Assembly: GCA_028689995.1 (NCBI GenBank)
Contig: JAQVCB010000004.1
Location: forward strand, 1-64,000
Source of the DNA: Candidatus Gastranaerophilales bacterium
GTDB taxonomy: Bacteria > Cyanobacteriota > Vampirovibrionia > Gastranaerophilales > UBA9579
DNA length: 64,000 nucleotides
Direction of reading: 5' to 3'
Every line of letters starts with the position of its first letter. Position 1 is the stretch's first letter. Shown here one piece after another: positions 13,859 to 57,123 of this stretch. A model generated the notes under the pieces. That model ran no database searches, had not been told where the DNA came from, and saw only the letters and a list, made by a program, of their open reading frames with translations. The translations under genes and the position numbers were made by a program.

Positions 13859-14350
13859 ATGGAAAAAGTCTTATTGCTCAACGCCACTTATGAACCTCTA
13901 AATGTCTGCACCTGGCAGCGTGCACTCAAGCTTATTGTTAAAGGTAAAGCTGAAGAAGTTGAGCATAATGACTGTTTAATTAATCAGACTATTTGTGCTC
14001 CTACAGTTATAAGACTTCGTTATTATGTGGTAGTTCCTTACAAGGAACTACCTTTTAACAAGAAAAATGTTTATCACAGAGATAATCATACATGCCAGTA
14101 TTGCGGTAAAAAATCTTCAGATCTGACAATTGATCATGTCATTCCAAAATCAAAAGGCGGTAAAAATTCATGGGAAAACGTGGTTGCGGCATGCACAAAA
14201 TGCAACAATAAAAAGGCAAATAAAACTCCTCTGGAGTCTGGAATGAAATTGTCTAAAAAACCCGGCAGACCGACTAATTATCTTGAATTTGAACTCACGA
14301 AATATTCAAGTGAAAATTTTGACGACTGGCAAAAATACACTGCAAGCTGA
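13859..14350 (+). CDS. HNH endonuclease family protein
   Basis: CQYCGKKSSDLTIDHVIPKSKGGKNSWENVVAACTKCNNKKANKTP. Confidence 0.92.
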   Translation: MEKVLLLNATYEPLNVCTWQRALKLIVKGKAEEVEHNDCLINQTICAPTVIRLRYYVVVPYKELPFNKKNVYHRDNHTCQYCGKKSSDLTIDHVIPKSKGGKNSWENVVAACTKCNNKKANKTPLESGMKLSKKPGRPTNYLEFELTKYSSENFDDWQKYTAS

Positions 14351-14377: not shown

Positions 14378-14845
14378 ACGTTTGAATCGGTAAATTTGCT
14401 AATTCGTCGGAACAATGTCTAACTATAATGAATTATATAGATCGTTGTTCCTCCTCACCCACAAGGGGCAGAGCAAATTTACCTGTATATGTCGCTCATA
14501 AGAACTGCACAAAACTTTCATATACTACAAAAATTACCTGTTGCTGACAATTATTTTTCATTTATTTTAATTTTGTTTTAGTTAGAAGCTGTCTTGTTAA
14601 AGTTGAATCGCCTTGCCAAGCAAGCCGCTTGCAACTTTAACCGCAGTCCAAAAATCGAGCCTGTATTTATATCATAATTTGATTTTTACATTGTTAGCCA
14701 GACAGGCTCTTAGAAGTTTTTAAAATGCAGAAATTCAGGTTTTTATAGTCAAGATAGTTATATTGTGTGGATATTTATCCGCAACAGGTAATTTTCTACG
14801 TCGATGAAAAGTTTTTAGCATTTCTAATTCGCTTTTTGTTAAATA
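14378..14845 (-). repeat. E1: long modular palindromic element (containing 121-bp insert E1b)
   Basis: Helices GGTAAATTTGCT(14389-14400)/AGCAAATTTACC(14472-14483) and AAAATTACCTGTTGC(14530-14544)/GCAACAGGTAATTTT(14781-14795); homologous to E2 and E3. Confidence 0.85.
14589..14716. mobile_element. E1b: 121-bp insert (14589-14709) inside E1 with 7-bp direct repeat TTAGAAG (14582-14588 and 14710-14716)
   Basis: E2 reads gttttagTTAGAAGtttttaaaatgcag without the insert; insert ends CTGTCTTGTTAA...TTAGCCAGACAGGCTC are imperfect inverted repeats. Confidence 0.75.
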
Positions 14846-23410: not shown

Positions 23411-23630
23411 TAGTAGACAGATACGAACAGATAAATAATTTAATTATATTTTAAAATTGAGAATTTAATTACCTTTTGTCATTGCGAGGGTTTCGAAGAA
23501 ATCCGTGGCAATCTTACCAGTTTTTATTTATTATCTTCAGACTTAATTGATAAGATCCTTTGAATTTACTTCGTTTCGCTCAGGATGACAAAAGATTTTC
23601 ATTTTTATCTGTGAACAATTTGGGCATAAC
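23411..23630 (+). repeat. R1: diverged copy of the TAGTGG-TIR intergenic repeat
   Basis: tagtagacagatacgaacagataaataattt...gtcattgcgagggtttcgaagaaatccgtggcaatcttaccag...tttttatctgtgaacaattt; shares core with R2/R3. Confidence 0.7.
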
Positions 23631-30783: not shown

Positions 30784-31007
30784 AGTAGTGGAAAAATACA
30801 AACTGATAAATAATTAAAATCTAGAATTTAATTATTTATCATACACATGTCATTGCGAGGATTTCGGAGAAATCCGTGGCAATCTTACCAGTTTTCGCCT
30901 GTTATCTTCTGACATTGTGGGCAAAATCCTTCGACTTTACTTCATTTAGCTCAGGATGACATTTTAAGGATTTTTCGTTTTTATCAGTTGCAATTTAACC
31001 ACTACCA
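30784..31007 (+). repeat. R2: intergenic repeat with TAGTGG-type terminal inverted repeats
   Basis: tagtagtggaaaaatacaaactgataaa ... ttttatcagttgcaatttaaccactacc; matches R3 inverted. Confidence 0.85.
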
Positions 31008-31047: not shown

Positions 31048-31487
31048 AATATTTCAGCCTGTCAAACAGCAGTAATAGCTTACTAGAAATGCTAGAAACC
31101 TTTCATCGGCGGAAAAATAATCCCTTGCGGACAAAACATTATAAACACTTCAGTCGTGAAATAAAAAACTTCAAACAATCGCATTTCTCTTCAGACTCTC
31201 AAACAAAGAAGATAAATAGAGAGCAAAAGATTTATCGGCAAGGGATTATTTTGTAGCATATGAAGGTTTTGTGCAGTTCTTGTAGGCGGTCAAATTAAAG
31301 CAAGTCGGCACTGTCTGAATGCGATAGCGGGAGTGGAGAAAAGTCGAAATGGCTGCGGTCAGCAGGCAGTGTAGACTTTTCGTAACTCGTTCAGGATTTT
31401 TCAATATACTATGTTAGAAGGTATCTTGCTTTATTAAAAATCCGAGTTTGCCTGACATTCGATAAGTTTTACAGGCTGAAAATATTA
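31048..31487 (+). repeat. E4: long modular palindromic element with its own terminal inverted repeats
   Basis: TCAGCCTGTCAAAC ... GTTTTACAGGCTGA ends; inner helix AAAATAATCCCTTGC(31114-31128)/GCAAGGGATTATTTT(31238-31252). Confidence 0.8.
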
Positions 31488-31892
31488 TTAATTTTAGACA
31501 TAAAAATACCCCGTATTTGGAACGGGGAAGAAGAGATCATGAGGCAGAATTTAAATTCTCGTTAGAATTTAAATTTTTATTTTTCCTTATTGTAAGGAAT
31601 CTTTTAAAAAATTTTAAATAACAACCTCTAACTCAATTGGACTTAATTAATATAAACTTCAAACTCAATATTAATAATAAATCTTCAAAAAAAATTGAAT
31701 ATTAGTCATGAGAATTAGACTTTATTACTCTTTAGAATTATTTTTTGCCAAAAACCTAGATAAATTGTCATTATTACACTCTTTAATTCTAGTTTTACTT
31801 TAAATTATAAAGAAAATTATAATTATAAAAGTTTAAAAGCATTATTATACCACTTCAAAAATGAATTTGGGATTTTAACAACAAATAAAAAA

Positions 31893-36061: not shown

Positions 36062-39000
36062 ATGCAATGTCCTCGCTGCAGAGAGGAAAATTCCGAAAAT
36101 AGTAAAGTTTGTACAAAATGCGGGCTAAAGCTTAAAATATCCTGTCCAAAATGTAAAAGCCTTAATTCTGTTGGACAGGAAAGATGTCGTATCTGCAAAC
36201 TTAAATTAATAACCTTCTGTCCTGAGTGTAAAGCTCCAAATTTTCCAAATGCATTAAATTGCAGAAAATGCGGCAGGAAACTGCTTGTTCAATGTTCTGA
36301 TTGTAAAGTTCTTAATCCTGCTGACAGGACTAAATGTATAAAATGCAATTCTGATTTAAAAGAAAAACAAATAGAAAAAATTCCTGAAGAAAAAATAGAG
36401 ATAGCTCCTGTAATAAAATCTGCAAAATTGCAAGAATATGCTGTTCTTTCGGTAGAACTTATTAATTTATCTGCTGTAAGAGCAAAAATTCAGAATTCAG
36501 ATATTGTTTTGAAACTTAGAAACTTCTTTTTTCATGTCGTGGAATTAAAGGCAAAGAAATTTAAGGAAGAATCTAATGTTCTTTCAGAGCAAACTGCGGC
36601 AATCAGTTTTGTATCTCAAAATAATACCAAGAATTCTGCACTTTATTCTATAATTGCGGCTCAAGGTATTCTTAAAGAAATAAATGAACTGAATTTTAAA
36701 ATTCAAAATACTCTAAAAATAAAATTAAAGGTAAAAATCGGTATTTCAATTGTTAATACTCATAATAATGAGTATTATTCCCAGGTGGAAAGGTCTGCAG
36801 CGAATGCAGATAATGTTGTAGTCAATACAAAAGTTTATAATTTAACTTTAGATAAATTTGATTTTGAAATAATGAGCTCGGTACCGGTGGGAGATAAACT
36901 TACAACTGTTTATAGGCTTTTGGATCCGCTTGGGATAAATTTAACCCCTGAAATCATAATAGAAGAACCGAGAATTGAATTTTCGGGTGAAGAAGTTATT
37001 TCAAAACCTGTTGAAGTGCCGGAGATTGAGAAAAAAGAACCAGAAAAACTTTCAGGAAAAAGAGAAGCCAGTCAGGATAATATTACAGGTTTCTTGATAA
37101 AAGCATTAACAGAGGTAAATGAAGGTTATATTATAGGAATTTCTGCTCCCGACGGGTCGGGGAAAACAACAGTTGTATCAGCAGCAAAACAGTTATTATC
37201 GGGAAGAAATATTAATTTCCTGATTGGTCAGTGCCAGCCTATAAATGAAATTATTCCTTTTGCTTATTTTCAGGATTTACTTAAAAATCTTTTCGGTCTT
37301 CCTCCTTTTATAACAAATGTAGAAGAATCTAAAAAGATTATTTCTCAATTTCTTCTTTCGGAATTAAAGATAAAAGATAGACGTATAGAAGAAACTCTCT
37401 TTAATTTATTAAATATGGATGATTTTCAAAGTGATATGGACATAGTAAATAATCAAAAAAGAGTATTCGAATGTATAAAAACAATATTTGCTTCATTAAA
37501 AGCTGTAAATAATATAGCGTTAGTGATAGAAGATTTTGAATTTATTGATTCCTTATCACTGGAATGTATTAAATATTTTGTCGATAGAGGATTTTTAGAT
37601 GAAAAATCTCAAATAATCGTTACGCATGCTCCAGAAGTTGATTTAAACAGTTATTTTGACATTCAAAATAAAGACGAGAGAATTTTCGATATATATTTAA
37701 AACCAATGTCAAAAGAAGAAGTGGATAAAATGATCCGGGATATATTGAACGGTCAGGATTTAATTCCGCCAAAACTGAAAGACAAAATTTATGATAATTC
37801 AAAAGGAATACCTGTATATATAGAACAGGCATTATGGTTGTTATTTGAAACAGGAGCCATATACAGCGATAATAATATTTTAAAATTCAATATTGAAGCA
37901 GCAAATTTGAATTTGCCAGATAAGGTGGAAGATATTCTTAAAATCAGGCTGACACAATTAAATAAAGCTTCTGCTGATTTAACAAAAATTCTTCTTAGTG
38001 CCTGTATGTTTGGGCAAAGATTCATGCCGAGTCTTCTGCAAACAACGGTAGAAATGGAAGAACAGCAGTTTATAAATTCTTTACATTCACTCGAATCGAA
38101 TGGACTTTTTATTCAATACGATCAATACAGTTTAATGTTCAAAAATAGAATAATATATAATCTTGTATATAATCAGGGATTTACTGAAGAAGAAAAAATA
38201 AATTATCACACAGTTGTATTGCAGGTATTGAGTAATTATACAAAAGCCAGCAGTGCAATGCTTGCAGCACATGCAGAACTTGCTAATTTGTCTAATGATG
38301 CTGTAAATTGCTGGAATCTGGCGAAAAAGGAAGCTTTGCTGCTTGGGGATATTAAATCCTATACAACTGCACAACAAAGGCTTCTCTCATTGCTTGAAGT
38401 AATGGATATTCCCGATAAAGACAATCTTAAACTTAGTATTTATGAAGAAGCAGGCAAGATAAATTATGAAATAAATCCTGAAGAAGCAATACTATATTTG
38501 TCCAATGCAATACTGGAAAGAGAAAAAAGAAATGAAATAGTAAAAATTATTGAATTAACAGGTTATCTTGCAAGAAGTAGCGAATTAACAGGCAATTATT
38601 CAGGTGTTATCGAATGTGTTGACAAAGCATTGTCAAAAGTCAGTAAAGAAAACAATCCTATTGAATATTCTCTGTTAAATTATTGCAAATTAGAGGCGAT
38701 ATACAATACTGGAAAATTGGAAGAAGCGATATATTTAGCTAAAAACGACATTTTACCGACATTAAAAACTGCTGTTTCAAAAAATAAAACTATTTCAGGT
38801 TTAAGTCTTGAAGATTTAAATTATACTGAAATAGAAACAGAACTTATTCTGGCAAGGGCATATGCTGTTCAAGGGAATAGAGAAGCTCTGAATATTGCTA
38901 ATGCCCTTATGCTTAAGGCGAATGAACTTGGCCTTATAGAAATTGAAATACAGGCAAAACTTATAGAAGCCCTTTATAAAACTTTACAGGGAGAAATTAA

Positions 39001-39769
39001 TTCTGCAAATGCGATATTAGAATATTTAAAACCATTAATATCTCAAATGCCCGATAATAATAGTATAAAATTATATTGGGGATTCATTAATCTATTGTCA
39101 AATATTCTTTGTGGGAATTTTGATGCGGCAAAAAACATCATTGACTCAATCATGGCTATTGCAGAAGGCATTAAAGACTACAATCTCTGGGCAATAATTA
39201 AATTATTTGAAGGTAAAATTTATAAGGAATCGCAGAATTTTGAAAAGGCAAAGACGCTATATAGTGATTTAGTGCTGTATTGTTCTGAGAGAAAGCTGGC
39301 AATGGGAGCTTTGTTTGGATGGTATTTATTTGCTGAAGTTGAAATTGCTGAAACAAATGTAGAAAAAGCACAGGAAATTGCAGAAAGAGCACTGGAAATA
39401 TCGCAAAGAGCAGGAATAAATAATTATTTTCTAACAATGCTTTTGCAAAGACAATTAGGAGAAATTCAAATTATAAAAGGAGACTTTGAAGCAGCAAGAA
39501 TGCATGTGGAACAAGCCCTTATGTCAGCGAGAAATTTGGATTTATATTTGCTTCAATCCAAGCTGTTTTTGACTTATGGTAAAATTTTCCAGGAAATAGC
39601 TGCAATATCGGGTGAAGATAAACAAAAAAATGCAGATCTTGCCCATGAATATTTTATGGAATCGCTTGATATTGCTCAAAGATTAGAAAATGAGCATATG
39701 ATACTTCAGATTGAAAAAGAATTTACCAGTTTAAGCACTTTCTGTCAGTTATCAGGGATTATCATTTAA
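36062..39769 (+). CDS. 1235-aa multidomain protein: four zinc ribbons, degenerate cyclase-like region, AAA/STAND ATPase, TPR-like repeats
   Basis: Four CxxC...CxxC units in first ~100 aa; IIGISAPDGSGKTTVVSA Walker A; long helical repeat C-terminus. Confidence 0.75.
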   Translation: MQCPRCREENSENSKVCTKCGLKLKISCPKCKSLNSVGQERCRICKLKLITFCPECKAPNFPNALNCRKCGRKLLVQCSDCKVLNPADRTKCIKCNSDLKEKQIEKIPEEKIEIAPVIKSAKLQEYAVLSVELINLSAVRAKIQNSDIVLKLRNFFFHVVELKAKKFKEESNVLSEQTAAISFVSQNNTKNSALYSIIAAQGILKEINELNFKIQNTLKIKLKVKIGISIVNTHNNEYYSQVERSAANADNVVVNTKVYNLTLDKFDFEIMSSVPVGDKLTTVYRLLDPLGINLTPEIIIEEPRIEFSGEEVISKPVEVPEIEKKEPEKLSGKREASQDNITGFLIKALTEVNEGYIIGISAPDGSGKTTVVSAAKQLLSGRNINFLIGQCQPINEIIPFAYFQDLLKNLFGLPPFITNVEESKKIISQFLLSELKIKDRRIEETLFNLLNMDDFQSDMDIVNNQKRVFECIKTIFASLKAVNNIALVIEDFEFIDSLSLECIKYFVDRGFLDEKSQIIVTHAPEVDLNSYFDIQNKDERIFDIYLKPMSKEEVDKMIRDILNGQDLIPPKLKDKIYDNSKGIPVYIEQALWLLFETGAIYSDNNILKFNIEAANLNLPDKVEDILKIRLTQLNKASADLTKILLSACMFGQRFMPSLLQTTVEMEEQQFINSLHSLESNGLFIQYDQYSLMFKNRIIYNLVYNQGFTEEEKINYHTVVLQVLSNYTKASSAMLAAHAELANLSNDAVNCWNLAKKEALLLGDIKSYTTAQQRLLSLLEVMDIPDKDNLKLSIYEEAGKINYEINPEEAILYLSNAILEREKRNEIVKIIELTGYLARSSELTGNYSGVIECVDKALSKVSKENNPIEYSLLNYCKLEAIYNTGKLEEAIYLAKNDILPTLKTAVSKNKTISGLSLEDLNYTEIETELILARAYAVQGNREALNIANALMLKANELGLIEIEIQAKLIEALYKTLQGEINSANAILEYLKPLISQMPDNNSIKLYWGFINLLSNILCGNFDAAKNIIDSIMAIAEGIKDYNLWAIIKLFEGKIYKESQNFEKAKTLYSDLVLYCSERKLAMGALFGWYLFAEVEIAETNVEKAQEIAERALEISQRAGINNYFLTMLLQRQLGEIQIIKGDFEAARMHVEQALMSARNLDLYLLQSKLFLTYGKIFQEIAAISGEDKQKNADLAHEYFMESLDIAQRLENEHMILQIEKEFTSLSTFCQLSGIII

Positions 39770-42234: not shown

Positions 42235-42289
42235 GGATTTTATTTTACAATAATATTTTTATTTTTTCATATAAAAGCAAAGATTTTTA

Positions 42290-42630
42290 CGTTTGAATCG
42301 GTAAATTTGCTAATTTGTCGGAACAATGTTGAATTATATTCAAATTTATAGCTTATTGTTCCTCCTCATCCACAAGGGGCAGAGCAAATTTACCTGTATA
42401 TGTCGCTCATAAGAAATGCACAAAATTTTCATATGCTACAAAAATTACCTGTTGTTGACAATCTTCTTTCATTTATTTTATTTTTGTTTTAGTTAGAAGT
42501 TTTTAAAATGCAGAAATTCAGGTTTTTATAGTCAAAATAGTTATATTCTGTGGAGATTATATTCAACAGGTAATTTTTTCCGCCAATGAAAAGTTTTTAG
42601 CATTTCTAATTCACTTTTTGCAAGATATTC
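42290..42630 (-). repeat. E2: long modular palindromic element, empty-site copy relative to E1b
   Basis: Helices GGTAAATTTGCT(42300-42311)/AGCAAATTTACC(42383-42394); AAAATTACCTGTTG(42441-42454)/CAACAGGTAATTTT(42564-42577). Confidence 0.85.
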
Positions 42631-47186: not shown

Positions 47187-47348
47187 GTTAACGAAATCAA
47201 AAAAACAAAGTTTTTTGTTTCGTCTTACGTCCCCATCGTCCAGTGTAAAAATGCCGAAAACTGACCGTTTCCGCCATTTTTCACTTTTGTTAGGGTCGTG
47301 TTGACGAATAGAAAATAAGAGCTGTTTAACTATTCGTCAACACTCCCT
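47187..47348 (-). repeat. E7: compact structured element with terminal inverted repeats and flanking TTGAA
   Basis: GGGAGTGTTAACGAA...TTCGTCAACACTCCC; hairpin GTGTTGACGAATAG/CTATTCGTCAACAC. Confidence 0.8.
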
Positions 47349-47362
47349 TGAAGAGCTATAGA

Positions 47363-49443: not shown

Positions 49444-49690
49444 TTATAATTATTTCGTTAATAGTCCCAATCGTTTAGTGTCAAAGTGACGAAAACTTGA
49501 ATGAGTTACATAATACCTCCAGCTCCTGCGTCATTCCCCGCCATCGGTGGGGCGGGCAGCAACTTCAGCATTATTTCACTCCCGCTATCGTAGACCGTTT
49601 CTGTCACTTTTCACATCCGTTAGGGTCGTGGTTACGAATAGAAAATAAGAGCTATTTAATTATTCGTTACCACTTCGTTATTATAAATCA
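49444..49690 (-). repeat. E6: structured element with two concentric modules
   Basis: GTGGTTACGAATA(49628-49640)/TATTCGTTACCAC(49661-49673); minus strand continues GACCCTAACGGATGTGAAAAGTGAC. Confidence 0.8.
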
Positions 49691-56477: not shown

Positions 56478-56564
56478 AATTTAAAGATACAATAAACTAT
56501 TAGTTATTTATATAAGTATATGCATGGTGGGTTGTAACTAGTACGGTAAAGGTTTTGCGCATGT

Positions 56565-56895
56565 TTGAATCGGTAAAATTGTTAATTCGTCAGAACAATG
56601 TTTAATTATTATGATAATTGCACAATTACTTGTTTTTCCTCACCCCTAAAGGGGCTGGAACAATTTTGCCTGTGTTGTTCGTTCATAACGGATCGTAAAA
56701 AACTTTTTAAGGCGGCGAATTTTTATTAAGCCCCTCCTTTTTTATTTTTTTAATATTTTTAAGGAGAGAGAAAAGAAGTGTTTTGGACTTTTATTGAAGC
56801 AGAGTTGTTTGTTGGCTGGAATAGAAGAAGAGGCTTAATAAAAATCCTTGCTGAAAAAAGTTTTAACGATCCGTAATTCACTTTTTGTAAATTCT
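56565..56895 (-). repeat. E3: long modular palindromic element, divergent helices
   Basis: GGTAAAATTGTT(56572-56583)/AACAATTTTGCC(56659-56670); ATTTTTATTAAGCC(56719-56732)/GGCTTAATAAAAAT(56832-56845). Confidence 0.85.
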
Positions 56896-56901
56896 TTATT
56901 T

Positions 56902-57123
56902 GGTAGTGGTTAAATTGTAACTGATAAAAACGAAAAATCCTTAAAATGTCATCCGAGCGAAACGAAGTGAAGTCGAAGGATTTTGCTAATAATGTCAGAA
57001 GATAACAGGCGAAAACTGGCAAGATTGCCACGGATTTCTCCAAAATCCTCGCAATGACAAGTGGATGTAAGATAATTAAAATCTAGATTTTAATTATTTA
57101 TCAGTTTGTATTTATCCACTACT
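56902..57123 (-). repeat. R3: inverted copy of R2
   Basis: ggtagtggttaaattgtaactgataaaaacgaaaaatcc ... tttatcagtttgtatttatccactact. Confidence 0.85.

Follow-up and report, generated by a model that had tools for sequence, protein, structure and literature searches.

The window analysed here, 64,000 nucleotides of a Candidatus Gastranaerophilales genome (contig 39 of a 2.99 Mb draft assembly, 89% complete with 6% contamination), holds four elements, E1 to E4, each with a long hairpin (P4) whose inner arms carry different letters in different copies. Judged by UvrC, the closest named relatives are assemblies of Candidatus Gastranaerophilales and others from the Cyanobacteria lineage, at identities of up to 69%. 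The question raised by E4 is whether the matched changes in these arms reflect selection on a folded shape or only the way in which inverted repeats decay or are copied, and, if a fold is kept, whether it would be kept as RNA or as DNA.

The four elements and the matched changes between E1 and E4

The arms quoted for E1, E2, E3 and E4 in a preliminary description of this DNA were all located at their places (Table 1). Its central claim, that E1 and E4 differ at four positions with a matching change in the partner arm, was borne out: 4 of the 15 inner-arm positions are changed (6, 8, 10 and 11), each with a compensating change in the opposite arm. Four independent changes would all be matched in this way by chance with a probability of about 9e-6. 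The outer stem is indeed recognisable, being conserved among E1, E2 and E4, and the E4 interval folds far more stably than its shuffles on both strands (z = -7.3). In the comparison of E1, E2 and E3, the inner stem of E3 is too diverged for base-by-base alignment with E1 and is comparable in architecture only. The orientation of E4 is minus relative to E1-E3. The arms of E1 lie farther apart solely because a repeat of about 130 nt, flanked by TTAGAAG, is inserted in the loop; at least ten relatives of this repeat occur elsewhere in the genome (stretches L007-L017, L019 and L020).

Table 1. Positions of the elements and their parts in the 64,000-nt window
Feature	Position	Strand	Remarks
E1 element (5' domain and P4, with apical-loop insertion)	14379-14838	+	ends set where copies diverge
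E1 5' domain, P1[P2,P3]	14386-14501	+	covariance model R1, 135.5 bits; E1 is a training sequence
E1 inner P4 arm, 5'	14530-14544	+	
Repeat of ~130 nt in E1 apical loop	14589-14711	 	borders approximate
E1 inner P4 arm, 3'	14781-14795	+	
E4 element between terminal inverted repeats	31051-31486	-	inverted repeat I3
E4 terminal inverted repeat, element 3' end	31051-31067	-	ATTTCAGCCTGTCAAAC on +; letters verified
E4 inner P4 arm, 3' in element orientation	31114-31128	-	AAAATAATCCCTTGC; partner 31238-31252
E4 inner P4 arm, 5' in element orientation	31238-31252	-	GCAAGGGATTATTTT; partner 31114-31128
Palindromic repeat of 74 nt inserted in 5' part of E4	31318-31392	 	~25 relatives in genome
E4 terminal inverted repeat, element 5' end	31466-31486	-	GTTTTACAGGCTGAAAATATT on +; letters verified
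E2 element, uninterrupted	42289-42620	+	5' domain 42297-42412; inner arms 42441-42454 / 42564-42577
E3 element	56561-56887	+	5' domain 56569-56688; inner arms 56719-56732 / 56832-56845

BLAST searches of the window's own genome gave more copies of the E1, E3 and E4 groups (for E4, the copies C96, C89 and C50) and a fifth group, E5. Common to E1, E2, E3 and E5 is a 5' domain of about 116 nt, folded with P2 and P3 inside P1. A covariance model of this domain built from ten copies (R1) found nine further copies in the same genome at E < 1e-4, namely a broken E1 copy (C36) and eight copies that form a sixth group, E6, and gave seven matches in another genus of the same family (E from 1.5e-13 to 0.03). 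By covariance model the domain has 19 copies in the own genome. The refined model R2 gave 8 matches in the sister genus and, at E <= 0.001, none among the order's other 391 genomes. Exact-pattern scans of genome-contig and viral-contig collections, and BLAST against plasmids and phages, gave no match. The 5' part of E4 itself is not recognised by R2 in the E4 group; E4 is placed in the family because of its P4 hairpin and the outer stem shared with E1. The units measure about 330-560 nt, are present in many copies, and E1-E4 are overlapped by no open reading frame of at least 100 aa. Judged by its sequence, the E1-E4 family is noncoding and MITE-like.

Several other repeats and genes lie in or near these elements. 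A repeat of about 220 bp in inverted orientation, 91-98% identical, is found immediately next to E4 (30784-31007) and E3 (56901-57123); it contains a TCATTGCGAGG...GGCAATCTT palindrome and has a partial copy at 23420-23581. A relative of about 61 nt of the 74-nt E4 repeat (L101, L109) is inserted into the internal loop of P4, at an identical base, in the E5 copy C133 and the E6 copy L109. An 87-nt direct repeat, 84% identical, lies at 47263-47349 and 49593-49679, and the 1235-aa product of a gene at 36062-39769 has matches to zinc-ribbon, AAA-type ATPase and TPR. The gene for a 163-aa HNH endonuclease (13859-14350) ends about 30 nt before E1, which we take as coincidence, and a hairpin repeat stands ahead of three E1 copies as a candidate target site, of which no empty example was found.

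Conservation of the fold in seven subfamilies

There are 25 comparable P4 hairpins, in seven subfamilies from the own genome and the second genus; copies within one genome are not independent, and the family is held by two draft genomes only. In an alignment-free test applied separately to the upper and the lower stem, the best partner of each subfamily's 5' arm is the 3' arm of the same subfamily, and the true assignment is the only one of 5040 that reaches the observed total. In the 5' domain 90.1% of the pairs are standard, and double-changed cells number 87 versus 5-25 when the pairing is slid. The covariation score of this domain is 0.432 versus 0.164 +/- 0.014 in shuffles, a contrast inflated by the relatedness of the copies and taken from an alignment (A5) that was fitted to the structure; the arm-assignment test is for these reasons the cleaner of the two. 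The family shows the covariation-supported secondary structure by which structured noncoding RNAs are recognised.

The pairwise replacement of letters in the long hairpin suggests selection on its folded shape. The preliminary proposal of selection on the fold is supported by the subfamily-specific pairing in seven subfamilies and two genera and by the non-complementary features that are kept, but its wording that this occurs "rather than" on the sequence was too strong, since the inner arms are near-frozen in four subfamilies. Among the copies of the E1, E4, E6 and sister-genus groups, with E5 left out, changes affect 5 of 576 nt in the upper arms (0.9%) and 163 of 1895 in the apical loop (8.6%; Fisher p = 5e-14). 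The E3 group was excluded from this comparison because it joins two arm versions, a decision made after the numbers had been seen; with E3 included the counts are 26/704 versus 202/2291. The same group holds a compensated pair, U-A in one of E3 and C93 being replaced by C-G in the other (E3 versus C93, U-A to C-G).

That long inverted repeats simply drift in dead MITE copies, the changes matching by coincidence, could be imagined in a genome that has many nested repeats and truncated copies. It is contradicted by the covariation of the 5' domain, the arm-versus-loop rates and the matched E1/E4 changes, and was rejected on the subfamily-specific arm pairing (1 of 5040); we regard it as exceedingly improbable. 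Stems broken at random among further copies, named beforehand as the observation that would speak for such drift, were not seen, an inner pair being broken in only 4 of the 25 copies (E2, C177b, C89 and C99).

A different source of joint change without selection on the fold is template switching during DNA replication, by which one arm is copied onto the other, a mechanism documented as capable of giving rise to RNA hairpins and of preserving them (PMC8794818). In E3/C93 and in C101/C99 the two arm versions are set apart by several adjacent bases, which one event would explain, and template switching may have made this change in the E3 group. As the sole cause of the matched changes, template-switch correction is unlikely, and we consider the explanation as a whole improbable. 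It would tend to erase bulges, whereas bulges and the asymmetric internal loop (GCTMC on the 5' side and CTCCGC on the 3' side in most groups, GGCGGCG / CCTTGC in E3) are retained in all subfamilies while neighbouring pairs turn over. It would also let the arms diverge together, whereas the inner arms hardly diverge within subfamilies, and it would sometimes invert the loop, whereas the apical loops of related subfamilies align in the same orientation. Because unpaired features are kept beside pairs that turn over, the family offers a natural test of whether compensatory changes come from selection or from template switching, and this applies to RNA and DNA alike.

Transposon ends and mobility

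The preliminary description, which had seen the compensation in P4, overlooked the covariation in the 5' domain and also that related copies have transposon ends. Repeats resembling ACAGGRATYATGCA terminate the E6 and sister-genus copies. An IS701-like element in the sister genome (G001:C163) shares this terminal repeat, and there the end is followed by an open reading frame for a transposase with a DDE domain. The best NCBIfam model for this transposase is IS701 (NF049921), with 173 bits, below the curated cut-off of 250. Two IS701-like copies in the own genome have a transposase and related ends without the folded core. Terminal inverted repeats are present in E6, the sister-genus copies and E4, and were not found for E1, E3 and E5; those of E4 differ from the IS701-like ends, and no transposase was found for them. 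Candidate target-site duplications were seen by eye in the E6-type copies L127 (AATTA), L109 (AAATA) and L103 (TATTTT) and are absent in L126 and L129. One copy, L132, is about 200 bp long and internally deleted with both ends retained. From the ends shared with the IS701-like element we infer mobilisation in trans.

Some elements adjoin terminators. Five of the 17 examined (L126, L127, L129, L132 and L101) end within 3 nt of a perfect intrinsic-terminator hairpin, a count without an intergenic control, and E4 lies about 15 nt from such a hairpin (about 31504-31529); we treat this adjacency as a lead only. Group IIC introns sit by intrinsic terminators, and a degenerate form of a known RNA-based mobile system (a group II intron, a retron, or a TnpB or IscB guide RNA) would likewise be multi-copy, structured and noncoding. 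We nevertheless consider this origin very improbable. No relevant Rfam match was obtained at gathering or permissive E-values, and this includes HEARO, which Rfam is believed to contain. Neither a reverse transcriptase nor TnpB was found in the own or the sister genome, with positive controls matched in both searches, although the missing 11% of the own genome could hold a reverse transcriptase. With the required proteins missing and no Rfam match, the group II intron, retron and TnpB guide readings fail. The protein search for IscB also found none, but it is uninformative because no control genome matched.

RNA or single-stranded DNA

An even chance is what we give to the explanation that the elements form a protein-free MITE-like family whose core is moved by transposases in trans and whose fold is kept by selection as a transcribed structured RNA. 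The core would be one folded nucleic acid, in which the three-way 5' domain, P1[P2,P3], leads into the long hairpin P4 and its conserved asymmetric internal loop. The E6 and sister-genus copies would have been moved in trans, as DNA, by the IS701-like transposase, and E4, whose ends are different, presumably by another one. The least certain steps are that purifying selection would keep the fold as a transcribed RNA of about 330-400 nt, and that the internal loop would be a likely protein-binding site. A more far-reaching version, which we hold tentatively as possible though doubtful, is that P1[P2,P3]-P4, of about 350 nt, would be a large structured RNA of a new class that is solely transposon cargo, has become joined to unrelated transposon ends, and binds a protein, perhaps a transposase, through its conserved internal loop.

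The selected fold may be RNA or single-stranded DNA, and the sequence favours neither strand. G-U and A-C cells are equally frequent (26 versus 21, counted in the 5' domain, the cells on P4 being too few and the scan there catching spurious registers), and therefore no RNA strand is favoured. This is as expected if the fold were selected as DNA, that is, as a single-stranded or extruded hairpin for transposition or replication or as a shield against read-through transcription, with no RNA function of its own. In line with such a role, the E1, E3 and E5 units have the same extent as the folded structure, starting within a few nt of P1, which makes an internal promoter doubtful there, and hairpins are located ahead of the transposase genes in the IS701-like elements, an arrangement known in other insertion sequences. 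Autonomous IS701-like elements, however, move without the folded core, and the core is therefore not required for transposition as such. The P3 loops include GCAA and UUCG, the latter in one own copy and the sister-genus copies; GNRA loops are stable in both DNA and RNA and UNCG loops in RNA only (PMC8794818), so that UUCG weakly favours RNA. On balance we find a fold selected as DNA rather unlikely, though to be taken seriously.

If the fold is selected as RNA, the elements would be a mobile noncoding RNA family in non-photosynthetic relatives of the cyanobacteria, with several subfamilies to study in one genome. If it is selected as DNA, they would be an unusual MITE in which the structural constraint is on the interior instead of the ends.

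Among known systems, the element matches no Rfam family and behaves like a MITE with a predicted structured interior; a search of the literature on transposons and repeats in this order gave nothing relevant. The likeness to the IS701 family is in the terminal repeat common to the E6 and sister-genus copies, whereas E4, E1, E3 and E5 have other ends, and those IS701-like elements that lie in the own genome contain a transposase but no folded core. REPINs and other palindromic intergenic repeats are similarly dispersed, palindromic and noncoding and have no transposase of their own, but REPINs are much shorter than the core of the present family, which measures about 330-400 nt and combines a three-way domain with a long hairpin. 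Group IIC introns resemble the copies that lie beside terminators and differ in that neither a group II Rfam match nor a reverse transcriptase accompanies the elements in the own and sister genomes. The nearest published parallel by kind, likened by description, is that of QMITE1 and QMITE2 of Coxiella burnetii, MITEs of 150-400 bp with about 50 copies, some of which yield small RNAs (PMC5896051). Transcription has been shown for the QMITEs, whereas for our family a transcript is a prediction. Conversely, the available part of that report describes no covarying multi-domain fold for the QMITEs (PMC5896051), and it is such a fold that the present family has.
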